Shown here in pieces: positions 14,194 through 38,513 of a DNA stretch of 55,140 bases. The position numbers and the translations under genes were made by a program. Origin of the DNA: Fidelibacterota bacterium (GTDB taxonomy: Bacteria > Fidelibacterota > Marinisomatia > Marinisomatales > SCKK01). The DNA lies in the NCBI GenBank assembly GCA_004124475.1, contig SCKK01000021.1:1-55140 (forward strand), given 5' to 3'. Position 1 is the stretch's first letter. Each line of letters begins with the position of its first letter. The notes beneath the pieces were generated by a model, which was given only the letters and a program-made list of their open reading frames with translations, searched no databases and was not told the DNA's origin.

Positions 14194-15414
14194 ATGGGAC
14201 CTATGAATCTACACTTTGATGTTCGGGATATCTTTCGAGCGCCTCGTCTTGCGTTGGGTGGTAAAAAGATATGGATTATGCTCATTGCCAACTTAGTGGG
14301 TTATACTGGTTACTGGCTTTTGACCTATGCTTCTTTATTAGCTGCTGGAATATCGTTTAATCAAGCATGGTCGAAATACGGGCTGTACCCTTGTTTGTTT
14401 GGAAACGAAGTAACATATATTCCCGCCTGGATACTTTATGTGTTGGGGAGCATAATTTGGCTTATTATGCTTGTTTTAGGATCAACCGCTGTAGCAAGGG
14501 TCACTTACAAACAACTGAAAGGAGATGAATTCTATTCGTCAGGAGATGCATGGAAATTTGTTAAAAAACATTGGCACGCTGTTGTATTCACTCACCTGTC
14601 GATCGTATTGATTCTTCTATTTTTTGTGGTAATGGCCACAGTGTTCGCTCTGATTGGAAAAATTCCATATTTAGGAGAACTGTTTTTTGCTATTCCTTAT
14701 CTGTTATGGTTCTTTGGTTCGGTTTTCGTGGCATACACATTAGTCGTCCTAGTTATTTCAGTTTTCTTTACACATGCCATTGTGGGAACTCTCGAAGAAG
14801 ATACCATGGGAGCGGTTTTCCAGAATTTTTCCATAACATGGTCTCAACCCTGGCGGATCGTTTTATACTTGACAATCATATGTGGTTTGATGTATGCAGG
14901 TCTACTGATTTTTGGGTGGTTCATGGGAGCTGGATATGAGTTAATTAACATTGTGTACGGTCACAAATGGTTGATGGGAGATAAACTTGCAAATATGGTT
15001 GGATGGGCAACAAATATTGTCATTGGTCCAAATTCTCCAATTGCATGGGGTTTAGGATGTTATTCGGGTGGAATTTGCACCATTAATGTTCCAATTATGG
15101 CTTCTCCTCTCGGACCTATGGAATATATCGGCGGTACATTTATTGCTGTCTTTCTTTTCTTAATTATCGGGACGGTGATTTCCTATGCATTTGTGATTGA
15201 GGCAGTTGGTGAAACCATCGCTTTGGTTATCTTTAAGAAAAAATCTGATGACGAAAATTTACTCGAACGGAAAGATGAAGAGGAATTGGAAGCAGAAACA
15301 GACGAGACAGATTGGACTGAGCCTGTAGAAGGTGACAAAAATGAAAAAGGGGATAGTGATTCTGAGAAATCTGATGAAGAAGGAAAGGATGAAGCAACTT
15401 CTGAACCTGAATAA
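14194..15414 (+). CDS. Polytopic membrane protein with acidic tail, unknown function
   Basis: A 406-residue protein I cannot assign. It has about six to seven hydrophobic segments (near residues 28-48, 78-98, 128-152, 160-195, 228-250, 310-345) and then a 60-residue, strongly acidic, lysine-containing tail from about residue 350. The N-terminal FDVRDIFRAPRLALGGKKIW suggests an amphipathic cytoplasmic start, as in DUF975- or YciC-type regulator-like membrane proteins, but this is weak. GGAGGG lies 9 nt before the ATG. The last three codons and the stop codon lie inside a small inverted-repeat element (15406-15491), so the C-terminus may have been altered by its insertion. Confidence 0.6.
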   Translation: MGPMNLHFDVRDIFRAPRLALGGKKIWIMLIANLVGYTGYWLLTYASLLAAGISFNQAWSKYGLYPCLFGNEVTYIPAWILYVLGSIIWLIMLVLGSTAVARVTYKQLKGDEFYSSGDAWKFVKKHWHAVVFTHLSIVLILLFFVVMATVFALIGKIPYLGELFFAIPYLLWFFGSVFVAYTLVVLVISVFFTHAIVGTLEEDTMGAVFQNFSITWSQPWRIVLYLTIICGLMYAGLLIFGWFMGAGYELINIVYGHKWLMGDKLANMVGWATNIVIGPNSPIAWGLGCYSGGICTINVPIMASPLGPMEYIGGTFIAVFLFLIIGTVISYAFVIEAVGETIALVIFKKKSDDENLLERKDEEELEAETDETDWTEPVEGDKNEKGDSDSEKSDEEGKDEATSEPE

Positions 15415-15491
15415 TTCGTCAGCAGTTAATAAATGTGTATAAATTAAAAAATAGATAAAGATAGGAAAATATTGCTGATGAATTATTCACC
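15406..15491. mobile_element. MITE-like 86-bp inverted-repeat element, copy 1
   Basis: The left arm TGAATAATTCGTCAGCA (15408-15424) and the right arm TGCTGATGAATTATTCA (15473-15489) are inverted repeats with one mismatch, around an AT-rich 48-bp core. A second copy with the same arms and size is at 30826-30911. The left arm supplies the GAA CCT GAA TAA that ends the upstream reading frame. It is non-coding and may fold as a long hairpin in the mRNA. A small transposable element or a REP-like structure are both possible. Confidence 0.65.
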
Positions 15492-30825: not shown

Positions 30826-30911
30826 CCTGAATAATTCACCAGCAAATACAAAATTGTATTATGTGTAGCAATAAATAGTATTATGAAGATATTGCTGATG
30901 AATTATTCAGG
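30826..30911. mobile_element. MITE-like 86-bp inverted-repeat element, copy 2
   Basis: CCTGAATAATTCACCAGCAA (30826-30845) is inverted at 30892-30911 as TTGCTGATGAATTATTCAGG, with one mismatch over 20 bp. The 46-bp core is AT-rich. Same arms and length as at 15406-15491, and again placed directly after a stop codon. No open frame. Together the two copies define a small element family in this genome. Confidence 0.7.
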
Positions 30912-31243
30912 TTAAAAAAGGAACATAATGATTATGAAATTTATCAGGTATTTTTTTCATATAGAATTAACCAGTATTTGATGGATAACATTCAGAGTAG
31001 AGAGCATGAATTTTTCTATACAAATGCAGTAATGCCTCAGTGACGAGGACATAATTGAAGAACCAAGAACCAAAAGTCAAAATTCGTTTATTTTTAAGGA
31101 TATTTGGATATTGGATCTTGGGTCTTTCAGACTATTCTTTCCACCCATAACTAAGGGATTACCAAATGCAATGTGTCTTTATTGTTTTTTGAATTGATAT
31201 TACATATATTGGCATTATCTAGAAACTATCTACTTACTTGTTA
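30912..31243. repeat. Long non-coding direct repeat, copy 1 (before the TIR gene)
   Basis: Starts TTAAAAAAGGA and contains ATTTATCAGGTATTTTTTTC and GTATTTGATGGATAACATTC, then ATGTGTCTTTATTGTTTTTT to ACTTACTTGTTA. The same order is found at 33045-33271. The two copies diverge immediately after ACTTACTTGTTA, within a GTTRRRY-like core (GTTATGC here, GTTAGGT there). This copy carries an extra 142 bp at 31029-31170 flanked by AAATGCA direct repeats. Confidence 0.8.
31029..31163. mobile_element. 135-bp insertion with 7-bp target duplication inside the direct repeat
   Basis: The second repeat copy reads ACAAATGCAATGTGTC without a break. Here AAATGCA occurs twice (31022-31028 and 31164-31170) around 135 bp that begin GTAATGCC and end GGATTACC, weak inverted ends. 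Inside are the low-complexity arms AAGAACCAAGAACCAA (31058-31073) and TTGGATCTTGGGTCTT (31111-31126), inverted with two mismatches. This looks like a small element with a duplicated target. Confidence 0.6.
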
Positions 31244-31246
31244 TGC
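31240..31246 (+). mobile_element. Candidate integron core site GTTATGC (5' end of the TIR cassette)
   Basis: GTTATGC stands at the end of the direct repeat, 45 bp before the TIR start. Its exact reverse complement, GCATAAC, directly follows the TIR stop codon (32033-32039). In an integron cassette the 5' core (G^TTRRRY) and the 3' R'' box (RYYYAAC) must pair when the cassette is circular, and these do over all 7 bases. The middle bases deviate from the strict consensus. Confidence 0.55.
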
Positions 31247-31291
31247 TTATTAAATCAAGAAATGAAGTATAAAGAAATGAGGTATAAGTAA

Positions 31292-32756
<1,465 letters not shown>

Positions 32757-33044
32757 TTACATTATCAAAACGTAAAAAGGAAAAAACATAACCAACCCGT
32801 CAAATTTACAGACATGGTATCCCCGCCTCCTGCGGGCAGGCAGCCAGGGTAAATTGAAGTTAATTCTTTTCAGCTTAGGATCATCCAAAATAGTTACTGT
32901 CCACAAGCAGACTTGTTCAGCGGTTTGGGATTGTATACTCACCTGGTTAAGGGACATTTTGATTGGTGGCAAGATGACTTAAAGATGATTCCCCGCAGGA
33001 TGCTGTGCACTTACCCATTTTCCCTGGATGGGATTTCATGCTGT
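32757..33044. other. Gap after the toxin gene, with a degenerate attC-like stem
   Basis: ACATAAC (32786-32792), TCAAATTTAC (32800-32809), GTAAATTGA (32849-32857) and GTTAATT (32859-32865) are in the order R''-L''-L'-R' of an attC. The L arms pair well but the R boxes poorly, and a GC-rich CCTGC/GCAGG palindrome fills the loop. It may be the remnant of the toxin-antitoxin cassette's attC. No gene is seen in the rest of the gap. Confidence 0.35.
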
Positions 33045-33271
33045 TTTAAAAAGGAGGGATATGGATTATGAATTTTATCAGGTATTTTTTTCATATAGAT
33101 TTATCTAGTATTTGATGGATAACATTCATACTTGGGATGCTTAGCATGATCTGGATAACATACAGAGTAGGGAGTATGAATTTTTCTACACAAATGCAAT
33201 GTGTCTTTATTGTTTTTTGAATTGATATTGCATATATTGGCATTATCCGGAAACTATATACTTACTTGTTA
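33045..33271. repeat. Long non-coding direct repeat, copy 2 (before the membrane protein/ATPase pair)
   Basis: Same order as 30912-31243, without the 142-bp insertion but with a partly duplicated GGATAACATTCA (33117-33128 and 33153-33164). It ends ACTTACTTGTTA, and the next bases form GTTAGGT (33268-33274), which fits the GTTRRRY core consensus exactly. The repeat may contain an attC-like stem itself (CAGAGTAGGGAGTATGAA against ACTATATACTTACTTG). Confidence 0.8.
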
Positions 33272-33274
33272 GGT
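33268..33274 (+). mobile_element. Integron core site GTTAGGT (5' end of the membrane protein/ATPase cassette)
   Basis: GTTAGGT matches GTTRRRY fully. Its exact reverse complement, ACCTAAC, is the R'' box at 34704-34710 after the ATPase gene. The implied cassette runs from 33269 to 34824 (1556 bp) and holds exactly the two overlapping genes. Confidence 0.65.
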
Positions 33275-33315
33275 TGATATTTTAAATCTCTTTCTCAGTG
33301 TGAGAAGGAAACATC

Positions 33316-33708
33316 ATGAAAATAGACCTTGGAGCATCTTTAACAACTTTGTTTACTACAGTTGCGTGTCCCTACATAAGTGGCGTTGCCCTTGAGTCAA
33401 CTATATTAGGCAAAGTAGTAGCGGGTGTGAAAAGACCATTTGTACGTCACCTGTTTCTTGGTCTTGGTTGCTTCGCGATTATTTTCATTTTGGGATTTGT
33501 TGCTCCAATTTCCGATTTCCTTGAATCCCTGATTGAACGCCATGATATGACTACCTATTTCGGAGACAAGATAAAGGCTTATGTTTTCTTAATTGGAATA
33601 GCCACTCTGGCAGTCTCACTTACTCTGACCATAATTCTTTTTCCAATTGATTGGTTACTAACTAGAAAAGACGAAAGTAATGTACGACGCAAACCGCTAT
33701 TTCGATAA
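33316..33708 (+). CDS. Small membrane protein, partner of the ParA/MinD-like ATPase
   Basis: A 130-residue protein of unknown family. It has two clear hydrophobic segments (about residues 45-66, HLFLGLGCFAIIFILGFVAP, and 88-112, YVFLIGIATLAVSLTLTIIL), a possible weaker one at 7-25, and a positively charged C-terminus (RKDESNVRRKPLFR). Charge distribution suggests a cytoplasmic C-terminus. The SD is GAAGGAAA. It overlaps the ATPase gene by 29 bp, so the two proteins are surely made together and likely act as one complex. Confidence 0.65.
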   Translation: MKIDLGASLTTLFTTVACPYISGVALESTILGKVVAGVKRPFVRHLFLGLGCFAIIFILGFVAPISDFLESLIERHDMTTYFGDKIKAYVFLIGIATLAVSLTLTIILFPIDWLLTRKDESNVRRKPLFR

Positions 33709-34675
33709 TAAGATAATATCTTTCCTTAGCGGTAAGGGTGGGACAGGAAAAACGTCAATCGTTACAAACCTAGGGTTCTACCTCGCAATGAACAATGCAA
33801 AAGTGCTATTGCTGGATATGGATTTTTTCACGAGGGGACTCACATTTTATATAACTAAAGGAACAAAGTCTTTTGAGGGAAGCATCTTCGATACATTACG
33901 AGATAAGGAAGATTTTCGATTAACCCCCATACTTCCTGAAAACTTGTATCTTCTTCCTCCGTTTGAAGAGATTTTGGATTTGACTTCGTCTACACAGATT
34001 GATGAAGCATTCAAACTACACAGGGAGTCTTTTGCTCGTTTACTCGACGACTTAAAACAAAAATTTGACTTTATTCTGATTGATCAAAGATCAGGAATCG
34101 ATCCTCTAACAATATCTTCGGCATTGTGCTCTGATGCTTATATCATAGTCACAGAAGAAGATCGTACCTCACAAAGAACTAGCCATCTACTTATGCAAGT
34201 CTTGGAGGATTACAAGAAAAAGCTAGACGTCGGCCGAAAAAACGGTGCATTTCTCGGTTTCATAGTTAATATGTATACAACCAAATTCGGTAGTGATTTG
34301 ATCCAGTTTTTAGAGACCTCAGTCTTTGAGCAAAGGTGCCTAGCAGCAATTCCTCATTTTTCGACTGTCCGTAAAGTCTTTGTAAGAGACGAAATAATGG
34401 TTCAGAAAAGAAAGAATCACTATTTTTCACGTGAAATCAATTCGTTGGCTGAAACACTAAGGGGTCGAAAGGTGCTAAATTCTTTTCTGCGAGCCAAACG
34501 CCGTAGACGTTTAGATCTTCTTATTCCTGCAATAATCGGGATGTTGGCTGTTTATGCTTCGGGTACTAGTTACTTCCTATTTCAGCAGAAGAAATTGCTG
34601 GATGTAGAGGGATTAATGATTACGCTACTACCACTGATTCTATATACAATCTGGTTATTGATTCGCCGAGACTAA
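33680..34675 (+). CDS. ParA/MinD-like ATPase with C-terminal membrane anchor
   Basis: A 331-residue deviant-Walker-A ATPase. SFLSGKGGTGKTSIVTNLGF carries the KGGTGKT motif (residues 19-25), VLLLDMDFFTRGLTFYI the first switch aspartate (near residue 47), and FDFILIDQRSGIDPLT the Walker B strand (near residue 133). IVTEEDRTSQRTSHLLMQVL follows, as in MinD. Residues 270-275 are basic (AKRRRR), and two membrane helices close the protein (about 278-298 and 310-328). MinD itself uses an amphipathic helix, so the double-helix anchor is unusual. No plasmid partition gene (ParB) or MinC/E is nearby. A membrane-surface defence or signalling role is inference from context. Confidence 0.72.
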   Translation: MYDANRYFDNKIISFLSGKGGTGKTSIVTNLGFYLAMNNAKVLLLDMDFFTRGLTFYITKGTKSFEGSIFDTLRDKEDFRLTPILPENLYLLPPFEEILDLTSSTQIDEAFKLHRESFARLLDDLKQKFDFILIDQRSGIDPLTISSALCSDAYIIVTEEDRTSQRTSHLLMQVLEDYKKKLDVGRKNGAFLGFIVNMYTTKFGSDLIQFLETSVFEQRCLAAIPHFSTVRKVFVRDEIMVQKRKNHYFSREINSLAETLRGRKVLNSFLRAKRRRRLDLLIPAIIGMLAVYASGTSYFLFQQKKLLDVEGLMITLLPLILYTIWLLIRRD

Positions 34676-34703
34676 CTCAAAGAGTGAAAGGCTTTATAAA
34701 GCA

Positions 34704-34830
34704 ACCTAACAACAGCTGGAGTTGACGAAGGGCTACTGCTTAATTAGCGGATTTTGTTTCCTCTCGAAGTTATTTTGAAATACCAAGTTAGGTGTCCTAT
34801 CATCCTTCGCAACTCAGCCAAGCGTTAGAT
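34704..34830 (+). mobile_element. attC site, best example in the window
   Basis: R'' ACCTAAC (34704-34710) and R' GTTAGAT (34824-34830) fit the RYYYAAC and GTTRRRY consensus. The inner arms pair as GCTG(G)AGTTG(A)CGAAGG on the left (34715-34731) with CCTTCGCAACTCAGC on the right (34804-34818), 15 base pairs with two unpaired bases on the left strand. Unpaired bases at fixed places in an otherwise long imperfect stem are the hallmark used by integron integrases to choose the strand. The site is 127 bp, within the known range (about 55-150). It begins 28 bp after the ATPase stop and ends 49 bp before selA. Confidence 0.8.
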
Positions 34831-34879: not shown

Positions 34880-36262
34880 ATGTTGAACTTACGTGAAATT
34901 CCCCCAGTCAATACTATTTTGGATAATATGGATTTATCATCTATTAATCTACCCAGGGCTTACGTGATGACGATCGTTAGAAATGAGTTGACAACCATAC
35001 GTATGGAAATACAGAATGGGCAAGTGATTAAAAATTCTGAGGAGATTTTTAGTCGTATTATGACATCTGTCGAAAGTGTGAATAAACTTGGATTAAAGAG
35101 GGTTATTAATGCAACGGGCATTGTTCTACATACGGGTTTAGGTCGAGCGCCTCTTTCACCGTCAGTTTTAAAGAAAACGGTTTCTCAAATGGAAGGTTAT
35201 ACCTCACTTGAACTGGATCTTACTACGGGAAAGCGAGGGGATCGGACAAAATATATTTCATCATTGCTGAATTCCCTAACTGGCGCTGAAGCATCTCTGG
35301 TTGTAAATAACAATGCGGCTGCGGTTCTGTTAGCGATAAACACGCTGGCTGATAACAAGGAGATCATTATCTCCCGAGGACAACTTGTGGAAATTGGCGG
35401 ATCGTTTAGAATTCCTGATGTTATTGCGAAAAGTGGCGCCAAAATGATGGAGATTGGAACCACAAATCGAACTCACTTCAAAGATTATAAAAATGCTTTA
35501 TCGAATAAAACAGGCGCCATTTTAATTGTCCATACAAGTAATTACCGGGTGGAGGGATTCACAAGCGAGGTGGGAATTAAAGAGCTTTCTGAATTATGTA
35601 AGAAAAAAAGGATTCCCCTGATAGTTGACCTGGGAAGTGGTGCGTTATTTGATCTATCAACTGTGGATATTCCCAAGGAACCTGTAGTTCGTGATGTATT
35701 AAAATTAGGAGCCAGCTTGGTCATGTTTTCCGGTGATAAACTTTTGGGGGGACCCCAAGCAGGTCTGATTTGCGGGGAAAAAAGAATACTATCTCAAATT
35801 TTCAAAAATCCGCTCTATCGTGTATTACGGTGTGATAAAGTCATTATTTCACTTCTTGAGAATACACTAAAAACCTACAAAAAAATCCCTCCGGAAAACG
35901 AAAATTTGACCTATTCCCTATTACTTGCTACATGGAAATCATTGCAGGTGAGGGGAGAATCGATTCTTTCATCACTGGAGAGTGACTCTGTGAAAAAACT
36001 GGAATTATCCGTTGTGCCATCTTGGGTGGAAGCTGGAAGCGGATCTCTTCCAACAGAAAAGATCGAGAGTGCAGCTTTACGATTCCGATGTAAGACGATG
36101 AAACCGACAGTACTGGCTCAAAAATTTCGAGAGTGGGAGATTCCAATCATAGGATATATTACAGGAAACAGGTTTTACATTGATTTAAAAGCTGTGTTGC
36201 CGGAAGAAGATACAATTCTGAGGAAAGCGATTCATGGAATTGGGTTGGAGATTGGGGAATAA
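34880..36262 (+). CDS. selA: L-seryl-tRNA(Sec) selenium transferase
   Basis: A 460-residue PLP enzyme that converts seryl-tRNA(Sec) to selenocysteyl-tRNA. The conserved LKRVINATGIVLHTGLGRAP is near residue 77, VVNNNAAAVLLA near residue 140, IVDLGSGALFDL near residue 250, and the PLP lysine is Lys287 in MFSGDKLLGGPQAG. Length is normal. The start ATG has no clear SD. It lies only 49 bp after the attC, so its native upstream region has been replaced by the cassette array. selB is 3.4 kb downstream instead of adjacent. Confidence 0.95.
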   Translation: MLNLREIPPVNTILDNMDLSSINLPRAYVMTIVRNELTTIRMEIQNGQVIKNSEEIFSRIMTSVESVNKLGLKRVINATGIVLHTGLGRAPLSPSVLKKTVSQMEGYTSLELDLTTGKRGDRTKYISSLLNSLTGAEASLVVNNNAAAVLLAINTLADNKEIIISRGQLVEIGGSFRIPDVIAKSGAKMMEIGTTNRTHFKDYKNALSNKTGAILIVHTSNYRVEGFTSEVGIKELSELCKKKRIPLIVDLGSGALFDLSTVDIPKEPVVRDVLKLGASLVMFSGDKLLGGPQAGLICGEKRILSQIFKNPLYRVLRCDKVIISLLENTLKTYKKIPPENENLTYSLLLATWKSLQVRGESILSSLESDSVKKLELSVVPSWVEAGSGSLPTEKIESAALRFRCKTMKPTVLAQKFREWEIPIIGYITGNRFYIDLKAVLPEEDTILRKAIHGIGLEIGE

Positions 36263-36392: not shown

Positions 36393-37700
36393 ATGATGCA
36401 AACTTTAACAACAAAGAAAGCGAACAATTCAAATAAGATTTTGGATATCGACAAATCATTCCATAGTTGGTATCGATTCGTTCTTTCTTTTCCTCCACAC
36501 CTTGTTCGAGAATATATAAACCGATTTAAATTAGATAATTCAAATATAGTTCTTGATCCATTTTGTGGAACTGGGACAACTCTCGTTGAATGTAAAAAAA
36601 TGGGAATCCCCAGTATTGGTATCGAAGCACATCCAATGGCTCATTTTGCAGCTTCAGTTAAAATAAATTGGGAAATAGACCCTATTAACCTTATTAACAG
36701 TTCAGAAATAATCGCTGAAAAAGTTATTGAAGAACTTCGTTGTCAAGGAATTGAAGATGAACCATTCTTTCATATTAATGTTATAAACAATCAAAATTTA
36801 ATATCTTTGCCAAGTGAACAATTCAGATTGTTAATTAAAGACTCAATCAGCCCAATACCACTACATAAAACTTTAACTTTATTACAACATCTTAAAAATC
36901 AAGATAATACTAAGATATATAATTATCAGTTGCTTGCACTTGCAAAAGCATTGGTTTCGAATATAGGCAATGTTCGATTTGGCCCAGAAGTTGGAATTGG
37001 CAAAATTAAAGAAGACACACCGGTTGTTTTATATTGGTTGTCGGAAATAAAAAAAATAGCACGTGATATTCAAAATAACGATATCCATTTATCTGGCAAA
37101 TCACAAGTGATACTTAGCGACGCAAGGAATCTTAATAATCAAATTGAAGAAGAATCTATTTCGGCTGTGATAACATCTCCTCCCTATCCAAATGAAAAGG
37201 ATTATACGCGAACGACAAGGCTAGAATCAGTCATATTAGGATTCGTCAGAAGTAAGAATGATTTACGCAATTTGAAGAAGAATCTAGTTCGATCAAACAC
37301 TCGTGGTATCTACTCTTCCGATGATGATGATAAATGGATTTCAGATAATATTACAGTACAAGGAATAGCCCGAGAAATAGAGAAGCGCAGAATTAAATTA
37401 GGAAAGACTTCTGGATTTGAGAAAAATTATCATAGAGTTGCAAAACTCTATTTTGGCGGAATGTTTAGACATCTTTCGGTCTTACGAAATTTCTTAAAAA
37501 GAGGTGCCAAATTGGCTTATGTAGTTGGTGACCAAGAATCATACTTAAGAGTAAATATTCCTACAGGTCATATTCTGGCTGATATGTCACAATCATTAGG
37601 TTATGAAGTGTTAGGGTTGGATGTTTTTAGAAAAAGATTCTCTACATCATCAAAAAAATGGCTTAATGAGGAAGTATTACTTCTAGAGTGGAACCACTAA
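36393..37700 (+). CDS. DNA methyltransferase (beta-type, SPPY motif)
   Basis: A 435-residue enzyme of a Type II-like system. Motif I is IVLDPFCGTGTTLVECKKMG (about residues 52-71) and motif IV is AVITSPPYPNEKDYT (about 258-272). The S-P-P-Y form is most often seen in N4-cytosine methylases, but N6-adenine activity is also possible. Motif I lies before motif IV, with a 185-residue region between them that may contain target recognition. It ends 15 bp before the likely endonuclease gene. Both are more AT-rich than selA and selB, a sign of transfer. Confidence 0.82.
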   Translation: MMQTLTTKKANNSNKILDIDKSFHSWYRFVLSFPPHLVREYINRFKLDNSNIVLDPFCGTGTTLVECKKMGIPSIGIEAHPMAHFAASVKINWEIDPINLINSSEIIAEKVIEELRCQGIEDEPFFHINVINNQNLISLPSEQFRLLIKDSISPIPLHKTLTLLQHLKNQDNTKIYNYQLLALAKALVSNIGNVRFGPEVGIGKIKEDTPVVLYWLSEIKKIARDIQNNDIHLSGKSQVILSDARNLNNQIEEESISAVITSPPYPNEKDYTRTTRLESVILGFVRSKNDLRNLKKNLVRSNTRGIYSSDDDDKWISDNITVQGIAREIEKRRIKLGKTSGFEKNYHRVAKLYFGGMFRHLSVLRNFLKRGAKLAYVVGDQESYLRVNIPTGHILADMSQSLGYEVLGLDVFRKRFSTSSKKWLNEEVLLLEWNH

Positions 37701-37715
37701 AAAAGGATTTTATGG

Positions 37716-38513
37716 ATGTCAATAAGTAACAATAGATATTCACAACTTATTGATTATATATTTCACAAATACTATAAAAAAGGAAAAAAGGAAATCCTAT
37801 TTGAACGTTCTGATTTTAAAATCACAGCAAAGAAATTGAGAATAGAACTCCCTAAAAATTTAGGTGATATTATTTACTCATTCCGTTACAGGGCGAATCT
37901 TCCAGAAAAAATACAGAAAAAAGCAAAAAAAGATTACGAATGGGTAATTGTCCCTAAGGGTCAATCAAAGTATGCTTTCGTTCAAAGAAAATTATCTAAA
38001 ATAATCCCAAATCTAATGATGAGTATCATAAAAATTCCGGATGCCACTCCTGGGATTGTTATGAAATATTCATTGGAAGATGAACAAGCATTGTTAGTAA
38101 AGTTAAGGTATAATAGGCTAATTGATATATTCACTGGTATAACTTGTTACTCACTTCAAAATCATTTACGAACAACCGTTCACGAAATGGGTCAGGTTGA
38201 AACCGATGAGATATATGTTGGCATAGATAGGAAAGGTGCTCAGTACGTTTTACCGATTCAAGCAAAAAGTGGTAGCGATCAAATGGGAATTGTTCAAATA
38301 GAGCAAGATATAGCAGTTTGCAAGGACAAATTCCCTAACCTAATATGCAGACCTATCGGTGCTCAATTCATAAAAGATGGACAAATTGCACTGTTTGAGT
38401 TTGAAGAAAGCAATAAAGTTGTGAGCATTTTGGTTGAGAAACATTACAAATTGGTTCCGCCTAATGATCTTTCAGAAGAAGAGTTAATAAAATATAGGGA
38501 AAGTCTTAATTAA
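37716..38513 (+). CDS. Restriction endonuclease, PD-(D/E)xK-type (putative)
   Basis: A 265-residue protein directly after the methyltransferase. The likely nuclease site is QVETDEIYVGIDRKGAQYVL followed by PIQAKSGSDQMGIVQIEQD (about residues 163-202). An acidic residue on one strand and Q-A-K on the next give the D-(x)n-(E/Q)xK pattern. The N-terminal third is very basic (many lysines), fitting DNA binding. Because it is co-transcribed with the methylase I call it the endonuclease of the pair; specificity cannot be deduced. Confidence 0.7.
   Translation: MSISNNRYSQLIDYIFHKYYKKGKKEILFERSDFKITAKKLRIELPKNLGDIIYSFRYRANLPEKIQKKAKKDYEWVIVPKGQSKYAFVQRKLSKIIPNLMMSIIKIPDATPGIVMKYSLEDEQALLVKLRYNRLIDIFTGITCYSLQNHLRTTVHEMGQVETDEIYVGIDRKGAQYVLPIQAKSGSDQMGIVQIEQDIAVCKDKFPNLICRPIGAQFIKDGQIALFEFEESNKVVSILVEKHYKLVPPNDLSEEELIKYRESLN

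Follow-up and report, generated by a model that had tools for sequence, protein, structure and literature searches.

Within the window analysed here, a 55,140-nucleotide stretch of the genome of a marine Neomarinimicrobiota bacterium, positions 34704-34830 of the forward strand very probably form the attC that closes an integron cassette of two genes. The cassette sits on an attI-like platform (copy B), next to which no integrase gene lies. The anatomy and bottom-strand folding of the site, its complementarity to the start of its own cassette and a single-base homology break against the sister species all point to this reading. A sequence-only reading had proposed an integron attC at this position, which folding, the six-nucleotide bulge spacing and the homology break at the R' crossover now support; it had overlooked a repeated attI-like site, two decayed attCs upstream and the absence of a nearby integrase.

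Anatomy and folding of the attC site

Direct reading of the sequence gave an R'' box of ACCTAAC (34704-34710), which fits the consensus RYYYAAC, and an R' box of GTTAGAT (34824-34830), which fits GTTRRRY, the two being complementary at 6 of 7 positions, with cleavage predicted within R' at G34824^T34825. Between the boxes lies an imperfect stem in which L'' (34715-34731, GCTGGAGTTGACGAAGG) pairs with L' (34804-34818, CCTTCGCAACTCAGC) over 15 bp. Two extrahelical bases, both on the L'' arm and six nucleotides apart, are left unpaired: one G (34718 or 34719, the choice being degenerate) and A34725. The site begins 28 bp 3' of the stop codon of the gene at 33680-34675. The stem, its two unpaired bases on one arm, the six-of-seven match between R boxes and the position directly after a gene had all been described from the letters alone, and each held to the base.

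The site resembles the attCs of class 1 and chromosomal integrons (attC aadA1, VCR) in its R''/R' consensus and R' cleavage motif, and the layout of the aadA1 attC matches that seen here. The extrahelical pair on L'', six nucleotides apart, and the variable terminal loop are likewise shared, a bulge spacing of six nucleotides being that of the most efficiently excised attC sites (PMC3053210). Sites with T-N6-G were excised efficiently by all integrases tested, with some exceptions for VchIntIA (PMC3053210); in contrast to these best-excised attCs, the bottom-strand extrahelical pair here is T-N6-C, in a host of the phylum Neomarinimicrobiota.

When the bottom strand was folded with DNA parameters, as the earlier reading had proposed, the attC stem was dominant and was present in both the minimum free energy structure and the centroid. 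Fourteen stem pairs had P of 0.93-1.00, the fifteenth was split 0.49/0.49 between the two Gs at 34718/34719, the R-box core pairs had P of 0.91-0.94, and the base opposite A34725 was always unpaired (P=1.00). The folding energy of the whole site was unexceptional (z -1.7, with 13 of 200 shuffles equally good) because the terminal loop of about 72 nt is unstructured; lying merely 1.7 standard deviations below the shuffles, total energy alone is therefore weak evidence. A search for consensus R boxes combined with paired arms was more discriminating, scoring 26 at the site against a best of 22 when the 55-kb window was dinucleotide-shuffled 200 times, so that the co-occurrence of boxes and pairing arms is not a product of chance. 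The strict attC consensus occurs at one place in the window only, 34704-34830, and an Rfam search of the attC region returned nothing relevant.

The cassette closed by this attC spans 1,556 bp (33269-34824, forward strand) and starts after a crossover at 33268/33269. Its start, G^TTAGGTT, is the exact reverse complement of R'' plus one flanking base, AACCTAAC; counting the G, the bases after the crossover read GTTAGGTT, complementary to AACCTAAC. R'' and its own cassette start GTTAGGT are thus complementary at 7 of 7 positions, as expected if the R' half of the excised circular cassette is the cassette's own start. The cassette carries two forward-strand ORFs, one of 130 aa (33316-33708) that is hydrophobic, belongs to no family and looks like a small membrane protein, and one of 331 aa (33680-34675) resembling MinD/ParA-like P-loop ATPases with a hydrophobic C-terminus.

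A terminator or some other hairpin behind the ATPase gene, with a purely accidental likeness to an attC, would fit the 28-bp distance from the stop codon and a weak terminator-like match inside the site (34736-34750). No shuffle attained the observed score, however, R'' has its match 1.4 kb upstream at the start of the cassette, and homology between species breaks exactly at the R' box, so that the species comparison already contradicts a chance hairpin, which we regard as extremely improbable.

Cassettes before selA in two sister species

The array is flanked by the host gene selA (34880-36262, forward strand). The sole other genome of the genus that we found is Candidatus Neomarinimicrobiota MAG B71T3L11 (G001), a scan of genome contigs giving this sister MAG only; its SelA protein is 93% identical to that of the window. 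Before selA the sister species carries, in order, an AIPR gene, an attC (L070 604-660), the DUF433/DUF5615 pair also found in the window and, directly preceding selA, an attC of canonical form (L070 1333-1459). In the window, the first cassette (31241-32107, forward strand) carries a bSEFIR/TIR defence gene (31292-32032) and ends in a decayed attC (32033-32113) in which most arm pairing is gone, its R'' GCATAAC still being the complement of the cassette start GTTATGC. It is followed by a toxin-antitoxin-like cassette (32108-32797, forward strand) with DUF433 (32155-32382) and DUF5615 (32379-32756) genes, whose attC retains only its 5' end (R'' 32786-32792) in the window and is intact in L070. 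Two of the three attCs in the window are therefore decayed. Where the toxin-antitoxin cassette should have its attC, the window has the stretch 32798-33020 instead.

The toxin-antitoxin-like cassette is common to the two species (32107-32797 in the window, 99.4% identity to L070 654-1344), and the homology to its left ends exactly at G^TTATTTTTTG, upstream of which lies the bSEFIR/TIR cassette in the window versus AIPR in the sister species. Towards selA, the two sequences become homologous again at CG^TTAGATTC, from 34823 onward and hence at 34823/34824, after a different attC. The two species thus have different cassettes whose ends in front of selA fall on one and the same base, which places the 3' end of the cassette at the G^TT of R'. 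Cassettes have been exchanged between the two sister species at the R' box with single-base precision, and IntI was presumably the enzyme that made the exchange.

Further along, a type II methyltransferase and a restriction enzyme lie between selA and selB (36393-38513) and are missing from the sister species. No attC was seen at these restriction-modification genes, and they were therefore probably not inserted as a cassette.

An attI-like repeat in front of different cassettes

The cassette at 33269-34824 adjoins an 89-bp attI-like sequence that we found in five copies, in two genomes and in this genus only. Copy B (33021-33268, forward strand) has a conserved core at 33191-33268 ending ACTTACTTG^TTA, and copy A (30912-31240, forward strand) is split by a MITE-like insertion at 31029-31162, which has an 8-bp duplication, CAAATGCA; nearly identical sequence ending ACTTACTTG^TTA thus precedes the cassettes at 31241 and 33269. 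A third copy lies on contig C45 of the same genome (G000), so that this genome has the sequence at three places with one or two cassettes each, and two more are in the sister species, one of which (the fifth copy) stops at a contig edge. A sequence-model search of these two genomes and 39 relatives found no convincing further copy. Weak matches in other families were rejected as copies, being located in unrelated DNA, and comparison led us to reject the idea that the sequence matches the attI sites belonging to the intact integrons of this genome.

All four testable copies are followed by a different cassette, inserted at one fixed G^TT, and in all four the cassette start is the reverse complement of R'' at 7 of 7 bases: GTTATGC/GCATAAC at copy A, GTTAGGT/ACCTAAC at copy B, GTTAGAA/TTCTAAC at the C45 copy (attC L025 9867-9994) and GTTAGGC/GCCTAAC at the copy on contig C101 of the sister species (attC L068 11211-11337). 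With a different R''-complementary cassette at each testable copy, the repeat behaves as an attI, and we infer that it is a true one. The C101 cassette region of the sister species (L068 10409-11331) is visibly higher in G+C than its surroundings, which suggests import from another lineage.

A divergent mini-ORF of 27 aa (33014-33094, reverse strand; MKKIPDK..) recurs in four of the copies, with its start 138-174 bp from the crossover once the MITE-like insert of copy A is subtracted, a distance similar to that between intI start and crossover on contigs C50 (155 bp) and C65 (185 bp). It is a possible remnant of the 5' end of intI. Profile comparison with IntI N-termini gave a weak match (hhalign, P=0.006, probability 6%), and because this likeness is weak we go no further than to infer that the mini-ORF may be such a remnant. 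Searches of Pfam, NCBIfam, PDB and plasmids with the peptide returned no informative match, and a phylum-wide alignment search gave, outside the two genomes of the genus, weak matches only, those inspected not being integrases. Copy B also contains a candidate promoter (-35 TTGTTT, 17-bp spacer, -10 TATATT) whose position is conserved across copies; its hexamers fail a generic promoter scan.

Rather than attI sites that remain from integrons whose intI was lost, the repeats (A, B, C45 and the two in the sister species) might be mobile elements of a promoter or MITE-like kind, or else promoter cassettes. They occur at several genomic places without an integrase, their left ends differ, and a real MITE-like insert lies within copy A. 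Against this speak the four of four testable copies that end exactly at the crossover and then give way to a different attC-terminated cassette, and the divergent ORF at an intI-like distance from the crossover, as on C50 and C65, and we consider this explanation unlikely.

The MITE-like element at 31029-31162 has inverted ends GTAATGCCTCAGT / ACTAAGGGATTAC, and its relatives in the sister species lie on L068, L069 and, after selA, L070. Between a CNNM gene and copy A, at 30826-30911, there is a 20-bp inverted repeat (95%) with a 46-nt loop, a similar stretch occurring at 15406-15489.

Integrases, classification and possible loading in trans

No IntI was found in the 55-kb window, nor, as far as the available sequence extends, next to any of the five attI-like copies. 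Elsewhere the genome has six strong IntI matches (TIGR02249), with intact genes on C57, C54 and C50 and interrupted genes on C65 and C13, and matches of this kind were present in 21 genomes among 150 relatives. The closest PDB match of the C57 IntI is VchIntIA (2a3v; 311 residues, 1e-87). On contig C71 (L011 12651-14711), the IntI frame forms an ORF of 686 aa that runs on into what, from sequence alone, looks like an allantoicase.

AttCs built in the same way, the bulged arm included, lie beside IntI genes on C57 (L010 4657-4525), C50 (L013, five sites) and C65 (L014 11374-11506). An alignment of seven attCs, namely that of the window, one from the sister species and five from IntI-adjacent arrays, had 95.7% paired cells and 12 pairs changed on both sides, a strong covariation that is supportive and not independent because the arms were chosen for pairing. 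A short-loop attC covariance model (R1) misses long-loop sites, including 34704-34830, even without filters, so its whole-genome attC counts are lower bounds. A cassette with a BrnT toxin and a CopG-family antitoxin lies beside the intact IntI on C50 (L013 4034-4678).

Clusters of attC sites lacking integrase (CALINs) have been proposed to be degraded integrons (IntegronFinder, PMC9024848). The locus is like these in its attC-terminated cassettes without a neighbouring intI, having one canonical and two decayed attCs and no IntI in the window, and so the site at 34704-34830 belongs to this known kind: it is a genuine attC of ordinary type, and its array has no integrase. The array differs from the usual CALIN in that its single canonical attC would be missed at the default setting, which asks for two attC sites, and in that an attI-like site still precedes the cassettes. 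With a sedentary chromosomal integron that has attI and Pc it shares the attI-like site, the possible promoter and insertion at G^TT, whereas intI adjacent to attI, as in a complete integron, is lacking at this locus and the attI-like sequence stands at three places of one genome.

In established integron chemistry, IntI acts on the folded bottom strand and cuts R'. IntI would accordingly be predicted to bind 34704-34830 folded as a single-stranded bottom strand and to cut the R' box at 34824/34825, whereby the cassette at 33269-34824 would be excised or inserted; normal integron chemistry is the most likely maker of the site. Continued function would need an integrase acting in trans, and one of the remaining IntI enzymes of the genome might still act on the repeat in this way. 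Against the overall reading stand the missing integrase in the window, the unexceptional folding energy and an outer bottom-strand extrahelical base that is C, not G.

A further point against it is the decay of the neighbouring attCs, in view of which the array is possibly inactive. That it is a frozen relic on which no cellular enzyme acts any longer has, in our judgement, a chance only a little short of even: the decay of two of the three window attCs, the attI-like copies without intI and the broken IntI genes on C65 and C13 fit such a relic, while the perfect anatomy retained at 34704-34830, at least three intact IntI genes (C57, C54, C50) and the different cassette content of the sister species speak against it. 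That the genus keeps several dispersed attI-like capture sites which, having lost their own integrase, are still supplied with cassettes in trans by other IntI of the cell, we put forward only tentatively, as a somewhat doubtful reading.

What is new is modest, namely dispersed, cassette-bearing attI-like sites without integrase, here with defence genes before selA. Our searches of open-licence papers found no report of integrons in Neomarinimicrobiota, nor any of a single genome with several orphan attI sites. The present results confirm well-formed integron sites in this phylum, and the repeated integrase-less attI-like sites allow one to ask whether orphan attI platforms are served in trans. 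Cassettes at the locus are largely defence-related (bSEFIR/TIR and a toxin-antitoxin-like pair, with AIPR in the sister species), linking integrons to the turnover of anti-phage genes. If loading in trans is true, defence cassettes would be exchangeable at several chromosomal places simultaneously.
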